Positions 3,050 through 9,152 of a DNA stretch of 9,152 nt are shown in pieces. The number at the start of each line of letters is the position of its first letter. Position 1 is the first letter of the stretch. The DNA is from an uncultured Frankineae bacterium (GTDB taxonomy: Bacteria; Actinomycetota; Actinomycetes; Mycobacteriales; SCTD01): the NCBI GenBank assembly GCA_902805805.1, contig CADCUE010000192.1:1-9152 (forward strand). The letters run 5' to 3'. Made by a program: the position numbers and the translations under genes. Under the pieces are notes generated by a model. That model worked only from the letters and a program-made list of their open reading frames with translations. It ran no database searches and had not been told where the DNA came from.

Positions 3050-4495
3050 TCAGCGCTGCCCGGCGCTCGGCGGGTCGGTCGACGCCCGGTGCAGCGGCAG
3101 CCGTACGCGGAAGGTCGTGCCCTGCGGGCCGGTGACGAAGTCGAGCGCCCCGCCGTGGCGCTGCACGACGATGCGCCGGGCGCCGTCGAGGCCGAGGCCG
3201 CTCCCCTGGCCGGGCGCCTTGGTCGTGAAGAAGGCCTCGTACACCCGCGGACGGACGGCCTCGGGGATGCCCGGACCGGCGTCCTGCACCTCGACCAGGA
3301 CGTGGTCGTCGCCGTCGCGCGACGTGCGCAGCACCAGCCGGCCCGTGCCCGACATCGCGTCGGCGGCGTTGTCGATGAGGTTGGTCCACACCTGGTTGAG
3401 CTCGGCGCCGTACGCGGAGACGCGCGGCAGGTCGGGGTCGTACTCGCGTGTCACCTGCACCCCGGCGAGCTTGTGGCCGAGCATCACGACCGTGCTGTCG
3501 AGACCGTTGTGGACGTCGACGTCCTGCCGGGCGGCCGAGTCCATGTAGCTGTACTGCTTCACGGCCGCGACCAGCGTCGAGATGCGCCCGGTGGCGTCCT
3601 CGATCTCGTCCATGAGGTTCTCGGTCTCGACGGTGTAGGCCAGCCACCGCAGTGGGCCCTCGAGTGCGGCGCCCTGCCCGTCGACGGAGGCGGCGAGCTC
3701 GTCGAGCCACTCGACGCCGAGGCCGGCCGCCACGAAGACCGGCGCGAGGTCCAGCGACGCGGCGATCCCGAGCTCCTCCATCCGGTCGGCGAGGGCGTCC
3801 TCGAGATCGGCCTCCTCGACCGCGGTCAGCCGCCGGCGGCTCTTCGCGGCCAGCTCGACCGCCCGCTCCTGCGCGGCCACCAGCCCGGCGATGCCGTCGC
3901 GGTCGACCGGACCGCTCGCGATCATCCCGAGCTTGGCGCGCATCCCGGCGACCCGCTCCCGCAGCTGACCGGTCGCGCGGACCGCGGCCGCGGCCGGGTT
4001 GTTGAGCTCGTGGGCCAGGTTGGCCGACAGGGTCCCGAGCCGGGCCAGGTGCTCGTGCTGGCGCAGGGTGGCCTCGCTGTTGCGGACCCCGACGTAGAGG
4101 CCGTCGAGCAGGTGCACGGCGAGGGGGAACCACCGGCGCATGAAGGTGGCGAAGTCCGCGGCCGGCAGCCGGTAGAAGGCGCTCGGGCGGGTGGTCACCA
4201 CCGAGTTGGCGTAGCTGTCCTCCGGCTGCTCGACGTAGGCGCGGGTCGCCCCGGCGTAGGCGCCGCGGTGCGTCGTCTCGCCGATGACGACGTCGTCGCC
4301 GCCGAGCGCGCGGGACAGCCGCACACCTCCCTCCAGCAGGACCCAGAGCGCGTCGGCCGGCTCCCCCTCGCGGTAGACCGGGGTCGCGCTGTCGAACGCC
4401 CGCACCTCACCGTGCTCGGCGAGCCAGCTGAGCTGCTCGTCCGCGAGGTGCTCGAACAGGAACAGCGTGCGCAGGGTCTCGGGCGCGATGCTCAC
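3050..4495 (-). CDS. soluble sensor histidine kinase with N-terminal cyclic-nucleotide-binding-like domain
   Basis: A 481-residue cytoplasmic histidine kinase with no membrane segment. Residues about 10-125 resemble a CRP/CNB beta-roll (YREGEPADALWVLLEG at 41-56). The H-box LSANLAHELNNPAA gives phospho-acceptor His162, followed by a long helical dimerisation region to about 330. The catalytic domain has N-box NLIDNAADAM (372-381), G1 DAGPGIP (405-411), F-box FFTTK (422-426) and G2 GSGLGL (431-436), so it looks fully active. In the sensor, the phosphate-binding cassette reads GETTHRGAYAGATR (72-85) and lacks the clear PRxAT arrangement of cAMP binders, so the ligand may not be cAMP. The GTG start lies in a GTGA shared with the upstream response-regulator gene stop and has no ribosome binding site of its own. 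That coupling makes the receiver of the neighbouring fusion the likely phosphorylation target. Confidence 0.88.
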   Translation of the reverse strand: MSIAPETLRTLFLFEHLADEQLSWLAEHGEVRAFDSATPVYREGEPADALWVLLEGGVRLSRALGGDDVVIGETTHRGAYAGATRAYVEQPEDSYANSVVTTRPSAFYRLPAADFATFMRRWFPLAVHLLDGLYVGVRNSEATLRQHEHLARLGTLSANLAHELNNPAAAAVRATGQLRERVAGMRAKLGMIASGPVDRDGIAGLVAAQERAVELAAKSRRRLTAVEEADLEDALADRMEELGIAASLDLAPVFVAAGLGVEWLDELAASVDGQGAALEGPLRWLAYTVETENLMDEIEDATGRISTLVAAVKQYSYMDSAARQDVDVHNGLDSTVVMLGHKLAGVQVTREYDPDLPRVSAYGAELNQVWTNLIDNAADAMSGTGRLVLRTSRDGDDHVLVEVQDAGPGIPEAVRPRVYEAFFTTKAPGQGSGLGLDGARRIVVQRHGGALDFVTGPQGTTFRVRLPLHRASTDPPSAGQR

Positions 4496-6159
4496 GTGCG
4501 CGCCAGGTAGGTGTGCACCAGGGTGACGGCCATCGCGCCCTCCCCGACGGCGGACGCCACGCGCTTCACGGAGGCGGCACGCACGTCGCCGGCCACGAAC
4601 ACGCCCGGGACGCTGGACTCCAGCAGGTACGGGTCCCGCTGCAGCGGCCAGTCCGGCGGCGGACGGCCGTCGGCGTCGAGCAGCTCGAGGCCGGTGAGCA
4701 CGAAGCCGCGGCCGTCCCGGGCGAACCGCTCGCCGAGCCAGTCGGTCCGCGGCACCGCGCCGATGAAGACGAACAGCCAGCCGGCCCGCACCTGCTCGAC
4801 GACCCCGCGCACGCCGTCCCGGAGCTCGAGCGTCTCGAGGTGCTCGTCTCCCCCGGCCCCGACCACCTCGGTGCACAGCCGCACCTCGATCGTGGGATCG
4901 GCCTCGATCCGGGCGACGAGGTACTCGCTCATGCTGCGGCGCAGGTCGGACCCCCGTACGACGAGGACGACCCGGGCGGCGTAGCGGCGGAAGAACAGCG
5001 CGGCCTGCCCGGCGCTGTTGGCGGCACCGACGACGTAGACGTCCTGGCCGGTGCAGTTGACCGCCTCGTGCGCGGCGGCGCCGTAGAAGACACCCCGGCC
5101 GGCGAAGGCGTCGACCCCTGCGGCGGGCAGCCGGGTGTAGCTCACGCCGGTCGCGAGCACGACCGCGTGGGCGGTGACGCTGCCCGCGCCGTCGAGGTGC
5201 ACGACCCGTCCGTCGCCCTGCGGCTCGACGCCGGTCACCTCCGCGGCCGTGACCACCTCCACCCCGAAGCGCACCGCCTGGTCCCGGGCGCGCTGTGCCA
5301 GCTCCGCGCCGGACAGCCCCTGGGGGAAGCCGAGGTAGTTCTCGATGCGGCTGCTCTGCCCGGCCTGGCCGCCTGTGGCGGCCCGCTCGACGAGCAGCGT
5401 GCGCAGGCCCTCGCTGGCGCCGTACACGGCGGCGCCCAGACCGGCCGGCCCGCCGCCGACCACGACGAGGTCGTAGAAGGGGCTGCCGGCCTCCGTCGAG
5501 AGCCCGGCGCGGGCAGCCAGCTCCCGCAGCGACGGCCGCTCCAGCACCGACCCGTCGGGCAGCAGGACCACCGGCAGCGGGACGTCGTCGGCCAGGCCCG
5601 CCGCGGCCAGCAGGCGGGCACCGGTCGGGTCGGTGACGTCGAGATGGCGGTACGGCACCTGGTTGCGCGCGAGGAACTCCTTGGCCGCCTGCGTGTCGGC
5701 CGACCACTGGTGGCCGATCAGCGTGATGCCGCTGAAGGACGGGCGGCGGCGGGTCCGCCAGGCCCCGAGCAGCTCGTCGAGCACCGGGTAGAGCCGTTCC
5801 TCCGGCGGGTCCCACGGCTTGAGCAGGTAGCGGTCGAGGTCGACGTCGTTGATGGCCCGGATGGCGGCGTCGGTGTCCGCGTAGGCGGTCAGGAGCACGC
5901 GCTTGGCGTCCGGGACGACGTCCATCGCGAGCTCGAGGAACTCCACGCCGGTCATGCCCGGCATCCGGTGGTCGGCCAGCAGCAGCGCGGTGTCCTCCCC
6001 CCGCAGGGTGAACTCGCGCAGCGCCTCGAGCGCGTCGGGTCCGGACTCGGCCCGCACCACCCGGTGCGCCTCGCCGTACCTGCGGCGCAGGTCCCGGGCG
6101 ATCGCCCGGCTGACGGAGGGGTCGTCGTCGACGGTGAGCAGCACGGGCCGCTCGCTCAC
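4492..6159 (-). CDS. response regulator fused to glutaredoxin-like and thioredoxin-reductase-like domains, redox cysteines lost
   Basis: A 555-residue three-domain protein. Residues 1-130 are a receiver: acidic DDD at 11-13, phospho-acceptor Asp63 in DHRMPG, Thr91 and Lys114 in LLKPW. Residues about 144-225 look like a glutaredoxin/thioredoxin fold with a probable cis-Pro in LPVVLL (195-200), but the CxxC site reads SADT (153-156). Residues about 228-555 are a class II pyridine nucleotide-disulfide oxidoreductase of TrxB type: FAD motif GGGPAGLGA (235-243), the second nucleotide site VVGAANSAGQA (377-387) and the FAD-contacting VFVAGD (520-525). The TrxB catalytic CATC position reads GAAA (360-363). 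Only Cys369 and Cys429 remain in the chain. FAD and NAD(P)H binding look possible, classical disulfide reduction does not. The GTG start has GAGGA nine bases upstream, and its stop overlaps the kinase start. The domain calls are firm; the role as a redox or NAD(P)H-responsive regulator is inference. Confidence 0.88.
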   Translation of the reverse strand: MSERPVLLTVDDDPSVSRAIARDLRRRYGEAHRVVRAESGPDALEALREFTLRGEDTALLLADHRMPGMTGVEFLELAMDVVPDAKRVLLTAYADTDAAIRAINDVDLDRYLLKPWDPPEERLYPVLDELLGAWRTRRRPSFSGITLIGHQWSADTQAAKEFLARNQVPYRHLDVTDPTGARLLAAAGLADDVPLPVVLLPDGSVLERPSLRELAARAGLSTEAGSPFYDLVVVGGGPAGLGAAVYGASEGLRTLLVERAATGGQAGQSSRIENYLGFPQGLSGAELAQRARDQAVRFGVEVVTAAEVTGVEPQGDGRVVHLDGAGSVTAHAVVLATGVSYTRLPAAGVDAFAGRGVFYGAAAHEAVNCTGQDVYVVGAANSAGQAALFFRRYAARVVLVVRGSDLRRSMSEYLVARIEADPTIEVRLCTEVVGAGGDEHLETLELRDGVRGVVEQVRAGWLFVFIGAVPRTDWLGERFARDGRGFVLTGLELLDADGRPPPDWPLQRDPYLLESSVPGVFVAGDVRAASVKRVASAVGEGAMAVTLVHTYLART

Positions 6160-6342: not shown

Positions 6343-6723
6343 TCAACCGGCCGTGCGTCCCGCCCGCAGCCGCGCGATCTCCTGCTGGGCGTCGTCGAGC
6401 TGCCGGGCCATCGCGGCGAAGGCGGACGACGTCATGGAGAAGGCCGCGAGGACCTCGGTGAGGAACTCCGACGCGGCGGTGCTCATCGCGACGACCTCCT
6501 GCGGGTCGCGCGCGTCCGGCAGCACCTCCAGCAGCGTGACGTGGTGGGCCTCGACGAGCTCCAGCATGCTCTGGCCCTGCGCGACGGCGGTGCGCCCCAG
6601 CACGTAGCCCGCGTGCCGGGCCGGCTCGTCGCGGCGGGACAGGTAGCGCAGGAACGCCGGCCGGTAGTCGCGCTGCAGCCGCTCCTGCTCCGACGTCAGG
6701 ACGGGCGGCGGCCCCTCGGTCAC
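6343..6723 (-). CDS. stand-alone RsbU N-terminal (RsbT-binding) domain protein
   Basis: A 126-residue all-helical protein. Residues about 13-97 match the RsbU_N family, the dimerising RsbT-binding domain at the start of the PP2C phosphatase RsbU. Features are DYRPAFLRYLSRRDE (19-33), the GRTAVAQGQSMLELVEAHH helix pair (43-61) and FLTEVLAAFSM (87-97). The C-terminal helix (about 100-122) looks coiled-coil-like. There is no PP2C domain here or elsewhere in the window. The GTG start overlaps the rsbS stop (GTGA), so the two are translationally coupled. Because its likely ligand, an RsbT kinase domain, is encoded three genes upstream, it may bind that sigma-RsbT fusion as an anchor, competitor or activator. 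The domain call is good; the role is inference. A decayed RsbU that lost its phosphatase half is the main alternative. Confidence 0.78.
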   Translation of the reverse strand: MTEGPPPVLTSEQERLQRDYRPAFLRYLSRRDEPARHAGYVLGRTAVAQGQSMLELVEAHHVTLLEVLPDARDPQEVVAMSTAASEFLTEVLAAFSMTSSAFAAMARQLDDAQQEIARLRAGRTAG

Positions 6724-7136
6724 GGCAGGCTCGGCCGGGCCCAGCGCGGGCCGACGTCCCCTCCTCGCGAGGTGAGCCGGGCGAGCACCTGCAGTCCCTG
6801 CTCGAGGTCGAGGGCGGTGTGGACGTTGGCGATGCTCATCCCCAGCCGCACCATCGTGAAGGCGATCTCGGGGCTGACGCCCACGATGACCGTCTCCGCG
6901 CCCCGCAGCCGGGCCATCTCGGCGAGCACGCCCAGCGTGCGGGCGCCGTAGCTGTCCAGGACGTCCAGAGCGGCGACGTCGATGATCACCCCCGTGCAGC
7001 GCTCGGCGCCGATCCGCTCGACCAGAGCGTCCGAGAAGCGCTGCATCTCGGTGTCGTCCAGGGCAGCGTTGATCGACGCCAGGAGGTGGTCGCCCTGGCG
7101 CAGGATCGAGACGAGCAGCGGAGAGGTCCTGATCAC
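6720..7136 (-). CDS. rsbS: RsbS-like STAS-domain stressosome scaffold protein
   Basis: A 138-residue single STAS-domain protein like RsbS, which in Bacillus co-assembles with RsbR proteins into the stressosome and holds RsbT until phosphorylated. The STAS core spans about 5-118. The phospho-acceptor Ser is present in LDVLDSYGARTL (57-68) at Ser62, aligned with Ser59 of Bacillus RsbS, followed by GVSPEIAFTMVRLGM (86-100). A C-terminal tail of about 20 residues (GGDVGPRWARPSLP at the end) extends beyond the usual length of about 120. The GTG start at 7136 overlaps the rsbR stop in GTGA, with GAGGAG close upstream inside the rsbR end. Its place between rsbR and the RsbU_N gene supports the assignment. 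Longer upstream frame is possible but Arg-rich and overlaps rsbR, so it was not used. Confidence 0.87.
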   Translation of the reverse strand: MIRTSPLLVSILRQGDHLLASINAALDDTEMQRFSDALVERIGAERCTGVIIDVAALDVLDSYGARTLGVLAEMARLRGAETVIVGVSPEIAFTMVRLGMSIANVHTALDLEQGLQVLARLTSRGGDVGPRWARPSLP

Positions 7137-8065
7137 GCCTCCTCGTGGACGTGCTCGACGGCGTCGCGACGGATGACCTTGAAGCCGAGCAGGCGCTCGG
7201 CCTCCTCGATGCCGCCCTGCAGGTCGCCGATGGTGTTCATCTTGCCGAGGTCCACTCCGATCGTGACGAGCGTCTGCGCGATCTTGGACGAGAGCCCTGT
7301 GATGATGACGCTCGCGCCCATCAGGCGTGACGCGTCCACGGTCTGCACCAGGTGGTTGGCCACCGAGATGTCGACGTCCGGCACACCGGTGGTGTCGATG
7401 ACGACGACCTTGGCGCGGTGCGTGCGGATGCCGGCGAGCAGCTGCTCGGTCAGCTGCCGCGCCCGCTCGGTGTCCAGGACGCCGATGATCGGGAGGATGA
7501 GCAGCCGCTCGCGCACCTGCAGGACCGGTGTCGACAGCTCGCGGATCGCGTCCTGCTGCTGGCGGATCACGCGCTCGCGCTCGTCGACGAAGCTGACCGC
7601 CACCGTGTTGGCGATGCGGTTCGCGGCCGGCTCGTACGCGTCCAGCACGTGGTCGAGCAGCGCGAGGTCGGCGGAGTACTTCTGGAACAGCGAGCGCGCC
7701 AGCACGTCGCGCAGCAGCAGGACGATGCCGACGACCTCGTTGGTCTCGACGCCCCGCGGGATGATCCGCTCGGAGAGGTCGCGCGCGTAGTGGCGCAGCG
7801 CCTCGACGCTGCCGGTCTCGAGGACCTCGACGTAGTTGTCGTAGACGGAGGTGGTCTCCGAGTGGATCTCCTGCGGGGTCATCGCCGCGAGCAGGTGCGA
7901 GTCCGTGATCCGGCTCGCCCACTCCTGGCGGAGCTGGCTGCGGTGCTCGCGCAGGTGCGCGACGAGCTCGGGGAGCAGCTTCTTGTCGTCCAGCCAGCCG
8001 AGGTCGTCCCGGTCCGCCTCCGGCCCGAGCAGGGGCCCCTGCCCGCTGTCGCGTGTGTCGGTCAT
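7133..8065 (-). CDS. rsbR: RsbR-type stressosome sensor: RsbRD_N plus STAS domain
   Basis: A 310-residue protein. Residues about 35-165 form a helical RsbRD_N-type sensory domain (ending near the FVDERERVIRQQQDAI helix, 159-174) and about 185-297 a STAS domain. In Bacillus such proteins build the stressosome shell with RsbS and are phosphorylated by RsbT on two STAS threonines. By alignment from memory, Thr199 (LDTERA) matches Thr171 of RsbRA, while the Thr205 position is Ile233 (VDISVANH, 231-238), with Ser234 next to it. ATG at 8065 was chosen because GAGGAG lies seven bases upstream. An in-frame ATG at 8080, overlapping the previous stop as ATGA, would add five residues but has no good binding site. 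The stop overlaps the rsbS start. No transmembrane segment is seen, so sensing is cytoplasmic; the signal is unknown. Confidence 0.9.
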   Translation of the reverse strand: MTDTRDSGQGPLLGPEADRDDLGWLDDKKLLPELVAHLREHRSQLRQEWASRITDSHLLAAMTPQEIHSETTSVYDNYVEVLETGSVEALRHYARDLSERIIPRGVETNEVVGIVLLLRDVLARSLFQKYSADLALLDHVLDAYEPAANRIANTVAVSFVDERERVIRQQQDAIRELSTPVLQVRERLLILPIIGVLDTERARQLTEQLLAGIRTHRAKVVVIDTTGVPDVDISVANHLVQTVDASRLMGASVIITGLSSKIAQTLVTIGVDLGKMNTIGDLQGGIEEAERLLGFKVIRRDAVEHVHEEA

Positions 8066-8072
8066 GGCACTG

Positions 8073-8078
8073 CTCCTC
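8073..8078 (-). promoter_or_regulatory. ribosome binding site of rsbR, decides its start
   Basis: GAGGAG on the minus strand, seven bases before ATG 8065-8063. It overlaps the stop of the sigma-RsbT fusion (8079-8077), which couples the two genes, and favours the 8065 start over the ATG at 8080. Confidence 0.6.
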
Positions 8079-9152
8079 ATCGTCGGGTGGACCCGTCCGT
8101 GCTGCGCCACTTGCGCATCGTCACCGTGGTGCCCCTGCCGACCTCCGACTGCAGGACGAACTCGTCCATGAGCCGTCGGCAGCCGGGCAGCCCCAGCCCC
8201 AGGCCGCCGTAGGTGCTGTGCCCGTCGCTCAGCGCCTGGTCGAGGTCCGGGATGCCGGGGCCGGCGTCGCGCGCCACCACCAGCAGCCCGCACCGGGACT
8301 GCTCGTCCAGCCGGCCGATGCGCACCTCGCCGGTGCCGGCGAACTTCACGATGTTGCGGGTGACCTCGGAGATGGCCGTCGCGATGACGGTGCCGTCGGT
8401 CGAGGTGAAGCCCAGAGCGGCGGCGAGGTCACGTCCGGTCTGACGGGCCAGGACGACGTCGGCGTCCGTCGTGACCGGGATGCGGGTGCTGGAGTCGTCG
8501 TCCGCCCGGCCCGCCAGCGGGCGGCCGAGATCAGCGCAGTAGGGGCAGCCCAGCAGGTGGCCGGACACGTCCAGCTCGCGCTGGCGCCGGCGGTCGCCGC
8601 CGGACAGCGCGAGCAGCACCGGCCGGCAGGTCGCGGTCGGCGGCTCGGACCGGTCCATCGCCAGGAGGTACTCGACCCGCAGCCGGGCGCGGGTGCGCTT
8701 GAGCTGGGCGGCGAGCGCTCCGGAGCTCGAGTGCTGCTCCGCAGCCAGCTCGGCCAGCGCTCTGCCGTGCACGTCGTGGGCGAGCAGCACGGCCCGGTCG
8801 CGGTCCGGCAGGCGGGTGAGCGCGGTCGCCACGGCGTCGCTCGTCTCCCGGTCGAGCACCGCGTCCTCGGGGCGGTCCACCGGCAGCAGGTCCACGACCC
8901 GGTGCAGGTTGCGGCCGGTGGTGTCGGCCTGCCGCCACGTCGACGCCACGACGTTGCGGGCCGTCGTGATGGCGTAGGGCACCGCGGTGGCCGGGTCGAT
9001 GCGGTCCCACGCCGTGAGCACCTTGGTCAGCGTCTCCTGCACGAGGTCGTCGACGAGGTGCGCATCCCGGACGCGAGACGCCACGACCCTGCGCACGATG
9101 GTGCGGATCTCGAGCAGCTCCTCCGGCGCGGGACCGCCGGCCGGCGCGACGG
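8077..9152 (-). CDS. ECF sigma factor - ZAS-like zinc motif - RsbT serine kinase fusion (5' end outside window)
   Basis: The frame is open from the window edge to TGA 8079-8077, giving 357 visible residues (numbering here from GTG 9096 as 1). Residues 1-56 are sigma region 2 (DAHLVDDLVQETL, 11-23; ITTARNVV, 43-50). About 88-146 are region 4, with helix-turn-helix before LKRTRARLR (132-140). Residues 155-195 carry a ZAS-type anti-sigma zinc signature: Cys157, then HLLGCPYC (His180, Cys184, Cys187). About 208-330 are an RsbT-type GHKL kinase: SEVTRN (243-248), DAGPGIPDLDQAL (277-289), DGHSTYGGLGLGLPGCRRL (291-309). GTG 9096 would cut into the first sigma helix, whose residues continue in frame upstream without ATG, GTG or TTG, so the true start is probably beyond the window. 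It heads the rsbR-rsbS operon. The domains are clear; direct stressosome control of this sigma factor is inference. Confidence 0.88.
   Translation of the reverse strand, partial: VAPAGGPAPEELLEIRTIVRRVVASRVRDAHLVDDLVQETLTKVLTAWDRIDPATAVPYAITTARNVVASTWRQADTTGRNLHRVVDLLPVDRPEDAVLDRETSDAVATALTRLPDRDRAVLLAHDVHGRALAELAAEQHSSSGALAAQLKRTRARLRVEYLLAMDRSEPPTATCRPVLLALSGGDRRRQRELDVSGHLLGCPYCADLGRPLAGRADDDSSTRIPVTTDADVVLARQTGRDLAAALGFTSTDGTVIATAISEVTRNIVKFAGTGEVRIGRLDEQSRCGLLVVARDAGPGIPDLDQALSDGHSTYGGLGLGLPGCRRLMDEFVLQSEVGRGTTVTMRKWRSTDGSTRR

Follow-up and report, generated by a model that had tools for sequence, protein, structure and literature searches.

An RNA polymerase sigma factor, a zinc anti-sigma (ZAS)-like motif and a kinase of the RsbT type are joined in one polypeptide in an uncultured Frankineae bacterium, and the operon headed by this gene is judged to be a new stressosome output architecture. 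The window analysed is a stretch of 9,152 nucleotides (contig CADCUE010000192.1), and the fusion gene lies at its edge, at 8077..9152 on the minus strand. Through such a protein stress sensing may control transcription directly, bypassing the usual relay of three further proteins. In the outputs described in the sections of the literature cited below, the effector stands behind RsbT, in many cases on RsbU_N. A sigma factor carried on RsbT itself would turn a multi-step partner-switching cascade into one release event, and in a small reconstituted system transcription could then serve as a direct readout of release from the stressosome.

The frame 8077-9150 is open and continues past the window edge. 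A database protein (P0001) is 99% identical to the 357 residues in the window and is complete at 363 aa, so six N-terminal residues of the fusion lie outside the window and 363 aa are expected. Pfam places Sigma-70 region 2 (PF04542 Sigma70_r2, E 4e-10) at residues 18-76 (8923..9099, minus strand) and Sigma-70 region 4 (PF08281 Sigma70_r4_2, E 3.9e-7) at residues 105-157 (8680..8838, minus strand); no model of any other sigma region is among the Pfam matches of the fusion. From this content of regions 2 and 4 only, the sigma part is assigned to the ECF type, and the TIGR02937 sigma70-ECF model scores 64.7 bits against a cut-off of 42.9. The RsbT-type GHKL kinase domain occupies residues 218-350 (8101..8499, minus strand), with HATPase_c_2 at residues 230-347 (E 1.6e-9) and HATPase_c at 254-346 (E 3.9e-11); it has the GHKL fold and E-x3-N, DxGPG and GLGLGLPG-type motifs, and a query with stand-alone RsbT retrieves the fusions in all of 24 genomes at 50-63% identity. 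All four Pfam domains exceed their curated cut-offs. The single frame with ECF sigma regions 2 and 4, a ZAS-like motif and an RsbT-type kinase that the earlier note had described from the letters alone is thus borne out by Pfam and motif. The structure model of the whole fusion (pTM 0.64) leaves the arrangement of the domains open. Members of the family for which a source name is given are mostly called ‘sigma-70 family RNA polymerase sigma factor’, ‘RNA polymerase sigma factor (sigma-70 family)’ or ‘serine/threonine-protein kinase RsbT’.

The sigma part could be a docking module only, through which kinase or stressosome is brought to RNA polymerase without any start of transcription. No conserved -35 box was found before the operon in the fusion loci, which speaks for this, but both sigma regions exceed their curated cut-offs and align with ECF sigma structures, and we consider such a role improbable. 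The sequences upstream of the fusion genes likewise give no sign of sigma autoregulation.

The ZAS-like motif, C175-x22-H198-x3-C202-x2-C205 (8536..8628, minus strand), has the H-x3-C-x2-C pattern with an upstream ligand that is one mark of ZAS domains, and its four ligands are invariant in 105/105 aligned proteins and at 72/72 fusion loci. Pfam zinc-finger models gave no significant match in the fusion; zf-HC2 was matched by one of 32 segments, weakly (E 0.15), and the best PDB profile match of the segment is 3hug_B, also weak (E 0.78), which going by its entry title is the ZAS protein RslA. Of the domain families that had been expected, therefore, Sigma70_r2, Sigma70_r4_2 and HATPase_c were found above cut-off and the zinc finger was without a significant match. 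The label ‘ZAS’ is based on the motif and on helices in the structure model.

Had the homologues been consistently split into separate genes, a sequencing error would have been the obvious explanation, and a frame or assembly artefact can join genes that are in fact separate. When one genome per species was scanned (84,980 species), 340 relatives came up; the analysis covered the best 80 of them, at 79 loci. Of these 79 loci 69 have a full-length fusion, in many cases from a named isolate, and two (L063 and L073) have it in two frames. Three more fusions, from 396 sampled genomes of the phylum, bring the number to 72, all with identical zinc ligands and kinase residues. These counts refute the artefact, to which we give practically no chance. 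Among the best 120 of 2,617 homologues at E <= 1e-10, which need not all be fusions, 119 carry a HATPase and at least one sigma region. The window fusion is mostly 50-63% identical to those at the other loci. Its hosts, a group of soil actinobacteria, include Geodermatophilaceae, Nocardioidaceae, Propionibacteriaceae, Intrasporangiaceae, Cellulomonas, Ornithinimicrobium and Nakamurella. The two split genes reflect sequencing error or decay. A metagenomic protein of 592 aa (P0038) has a GAF domain ahead of the fusion, either a real extension or a joined frame.

The fusion is followed on the same strand by three genes. An rsbR-like gene (7133..8065, 310 aa) encodes RsbRD_N (PF14361) and STAS (PF01740) domains and matches RsbR chains with E values down to 1.8e-33; an alternative ATG at 8080 would overlap the stop codon of the fusion. 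Next is an rsbS-like gene (6720..7136, 138 aa; STAS PF01740), which matches RsbS chains at E 5.5e-22 with the phosphosite serine aligned, and whose GTG start overlaps the rsbR stop. The last (6343..6723, 126 aa) is a bare RsbU_N gene without a phosphatase (PF08673, E 1.7e-10, above cut-off), the GTG start of which overlaps the rsbS stop; a profile of relatives matches the RsbU structures 2j70 (E 1.4e-5) and 1w53 (E 2.5e-5). The earlier note had rsbR and rsbS directly after the fusion, as is the case, on one strand and with overlapping stop and start codons, both outside 8077..9152; its operon of fusion, rsbR and rsbS overlooked the fourth gene, RsbU_N at 6343-6723. The order fusion-rsbR-rsbS-RsbU_N on one strand recurs at 66 of the 69 full-length fusion loci, where RsbR and RsbS with STAS domains adjoin RsbT as members of a stressosome, and the other three (L021, L031 and L054) reach contig ends. 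Across 26 loci compared no further neighbour is broadly conserved (the largest cluster has eight members).

The stressosome core encoded in these operons is altered. The RsbS phosphosite serine is kept in 71/71 fusion rows, and the RsbR site equivalent to Listeria T175 is Ser or Thr in 44/71 (Thr199 in the window). At the site of Listeria T209, Ser and Thr are found in none of the 71 fusion rows, which have Glu (55), Gln (9), Ala (4), Val (2) or His (1); the window RsbR has Ile233. Stand-alone loci have Ser or Thr there in 14 of 17. The full set of three phosphosites (RsbR T175 and T209, RsbS S56 in Listeria numbers) is therefore not found in the fusion loci, which makes theirs a variant rather than a canonical stressosome. 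As the fusion RsbR rows share ancestry, the change at the T209 site represents one or a few events, not 71. In Listeria, according to a preprint (PMC12154155), T209 phosphorylation tunes the response and T209E affects core assembly. The fusion systems are thus natural examples that manage without phosphorylation of RsbR at T209, and some perhaps without the stressosome core as well. Identity between the window and 24 fusion genomes is 79-86% for RsbR and mostly 50-63% for the fusion itself; so constant a sensor suggests a conserved ligand or an assembly constraint.

The wiring of the whole genome was examined in 24 fusion genomes chosen across genera from the 69 loci. Each has exactly one RsbU_N, the bare one; one strong RsbT match, which is the fusion itself, beside rsbR (G019 has an additional weak match at E 3.6e-6); and one strong RsbR, with two extra weak matches (E 9e-10 and 8e-9) just beside it. 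As the sole RsbU_N match is bare and the fusion is the only strong RsbT, no canonical RsbU with a PP2C phosphatase was found in the 24 genomes, and the output attached to RsbT is, on this sequence evidence, evidently sigma. In fusion loci the RsbU_N frame stops 2-40 residues past the aligned domain, whereas at six outgroup loci the tail runs for 60-513 residues, five of them with GAF, PAS or histidine-kinase parts (L074 is cut by a contig end). In the sample of 396 genomes 25 have RsbU_N; at 153-252 codons from stop to stop, against 248-886 in the others, the frames of the four fusion genomes among them are four of the five shortest. For other bacteria, targets of RsbT that carry no RsbU_N have been proposed (PMC9237108, section 10), and the lack of a second RsbU_N is thus still compatible with other outputs.

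RsbU_N follows the fusion even more strictly than does the core. Among 147 genomes of Nocardioides, the genus of L071, the fusion occurs in five; RsbU_N (E <= 0.001) is found in the same five and in none of the other 142, although in G420 it falls just below the Pfam cut-off (23.6 against 25.5 bits). By pure counting this co-occurrence has a chance of 1 in 534,017,484, for genomes that are related and not independent. In G420 and G471, RsbR (E <= 1e-15, and in G420 also 1e-5) and RsbS (E <= 0.001) gave no match, and the same queries detect both proteins in the remaining three; the assemblies of G420 and G471 may be incomplete, and the G420 fusion is cut by a contig end. In these two genomes RsbU_N comes directly after the fusion, which still has the zinc ligands and kinase motifs. 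The two are close in sequence, so the loss of RsbR and RsbS may be one event. The stressosome core thus appears not to be indispensable, and, as far as these genomes go, RsbU_N rather than the core is the constant partner of the fusion. RsbR and RsbS as partners, as the earlier note had it, fit the adjoining genes at 66/69 loci but are only part of the picture. A stand-alone RsbT occurs in six further genomes of the 147, together with a distant RsbR but with no RsbU_N.

Binding between the two proteins has a precedent in B. subtilis, where RsbT binds the N-domain of RsbU (PMC12143880); the RsbU interface position E24 is invariant in 21/21 bare RsbU_N rows, and the contact Y28 is not conserved. 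One of the two main rivals to our reading makes RsbU_N an antagonist that binds RsbT and keeps sigma shut, with the stressosome as an added controller competing for RsbT. RsbU_N does stay with the fusion in the two genomes without RsbR or RsbS matches, where something must still control sigma. However, RsbU_N binding is the stress-on state in B. subtilis (PMC12143880), and RsbS and its serine are kept in 71/71 fusion rows with rsbS; we regard an antagonist as unlikely, though worth keeping in view.

A sister architecture suggests how the fusion arose. Sigma-ZAS proteins without RsbT were found in seven of the 396 genomes and, with L072, make eight relatives, all of which keep the ZAS motif. 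In all eight the motif is soon followed by a hydrophobic helix (scores 1.68-2.35), with about 100 or more residues behind it. Only one of the 72 fusions reaches the threshold of 1.6, and that inside the RsbT part; the window fusion has a maximum of 1.30 and hence no predicted membrane helix after the motif. In the RsbT-domain tree, 15 of 18 stand-alone rows lie apart from the 37 fusion rows (support 97/83), and three divergent stand-alone rows attach elsewhere. To judge from these sequences, RsbT seems to replace a membrane sensor on a sigma-ZAS module. The occurrence of sigma-ZAS with either a predicted membrane anchor or RsbT argues that RsbT is an input domain and, as the sigma-ZAS half is common to the membrane-anchored form, the ZAS part probably acts in cis. 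This suggests an evolutionary swap on one sigma-anti-sigma module between a membrane sensor and a stressosome docking domain.

Zinc anti-sigma factors such as RsrA sense oxidation. The other main rival accordingly puts a zinc or redox switch first: the ZAS segment in cis would sense oxidation, and the RsbT domain would merely tune or localise the protein. The ligands, invariant in 105/105 proteins and kept in 8/8 membrane-anchored relatives, would suit such a sensor. A mere tether, however, would need neither invariant kinase motifs nor a strict link to RsbU_N, and zinc may be structural, as is described for RsiW (PMC7406223). We regard this rival, too, as unlikely.

Direct control of sigma by RsbT's partners remains the best reading. 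Building on the domains, motifs, operon order, single RsbT and RsbU_N match in each of 24 genomes and sister architecture, we think it rather likely that the output domain of the stressosome has changed sides, from RsbU to RsbT, and extend that degree of belief to the following cycle. The sigma factor would be a cytoplasmic one of ECF type; in the same chain it would carry a zinc-type anti-sigma segment, acting in cis, and it would receive its input through the RsbT domain. In unstressed cells the RsbT domain would dock the whole fusion on the RsbR/RsbS core, and core and ZAS segment would withhold sigma from RNA polymerase. Under stress, the RsbT domain would phosphorylate RsbS (Ser62) and then release; once free it would bind the bare, probably dimeric RsbU_N, which would hold the fusion away from the core and, by dimerising or by displacing the ZAS segment, render sigma competent. 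What this cycle assumes for zinc binding, for the activities of kinase and sigma factor, for docking and for the direction of each step is putative, as is the choice of which RsbT-bound state is active. The short-circuited stressosome of the earlier note survives in part. Genome comparison supports a short circuit well, as the fusion is the only strong RsbT and RsbU_N is without a phosphatase (24/24); capture and release of sigma itself by RsbR/RsbS would be its putative mechanism, and a picture with RsbR and RsbS alone is incomplete. More speculatively, and at less than even confidence, sigma-ZAS-RsbT and bare RsbU_N may make up a switch of two proteins that is complete in itself. They would then represent a new class of sigma factor under the control of a partner, with RsbU_N regulating sigma directly through RsbT. 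The megadalton stressosome would be an optional sensor that some lineages discarded; where kept, it would capture and release the transcription factors as such, in most cases with a negative charge already built into the RsbR T209 site.

The RsbR-RsbS-RsbT and RsbU-RsbV-RsbW-sigmaB system of Bacillus and Listeria shares RsbR, the phosphorylated serine of RsbS, the RsbT kinase motifs and the RsbU_N partner. It differs in that here RsbT is fused to an ECF sigma factor with a ZAS motif, RsbU_N is without a phosphatase, there is one strong RsbR per genome (24/24) and, compared with Listeria, the T209 site of RsbR is never Ser or Thr (71 fusion rows). Other stressosome outputs are encoded downstream, some with RsbU_N (PMC9237108, section 10). 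RsbU_N is also found on histidine kinases and diguanylate cyclases (PMC9237108, section 10; PMC12143880); the exchangeable RsbT-RsbU_N link is common to both arrangements, but there the output is on RsbU_N and here it is on RsbT, with RsbU_N bare. ECF48/52/53 sigma factors (PMC8999054) join sigma and a zinc-finger anti-sigma in one polypeptide, as here, and carry a fused ZAS and membrane helices, a layout like that of the RsbT-less relatives; the window fusion instead has RsbT in place of the membrane helix and what follows, with no membrane helix predicted. The portions consulted of the literature on ECF mechanisms mention fusions of ZAS and membrane parts and not the RsbT fusion. That the architecture is uncharacterised, as had been supposed, agrees with a literature search that gave no description of a sigma factor fused to RsbT, although the group could still be listed in the 2021 ECF reclassification.

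Several minor observations concern the surroundings. A GTA/TANNNT-like box lies 6-8 bases before the fusion start codon at 49/69 loci (picked by pattern; e.g. L003, L038 and L050), a position that suggests leaderless mRNA. L021, L033, L066 and L070 have another RsbS-like STAS gene close to the operon (STAS confirmed for L066), and G521 likewise has a second one. Downstream of the operon in L042 (12296-13171) is an Hsp20-family gene, a possible regulon member, whose cluster takes in the flanks of L046 and L057. In the window, a response-regulator receiver domain fused to a thioredoxin-reductase-like flavoprotein is encoded at 4492-6159 (minus strand) and a histidine kinase next after it at 3050-4495 (minus strand); strong matches to this pair beside the operon occur only in L001, the nearest relative, of 79 loci. 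Finally, at the stand-alone RsbT loci L103, L104 and L105 the neighbouring frame, a longer one, contains another RsbT-like domain, and there is a long-branched RsbT in the tree; these loci are perhaps a distinct actinobacterial stressosome type.
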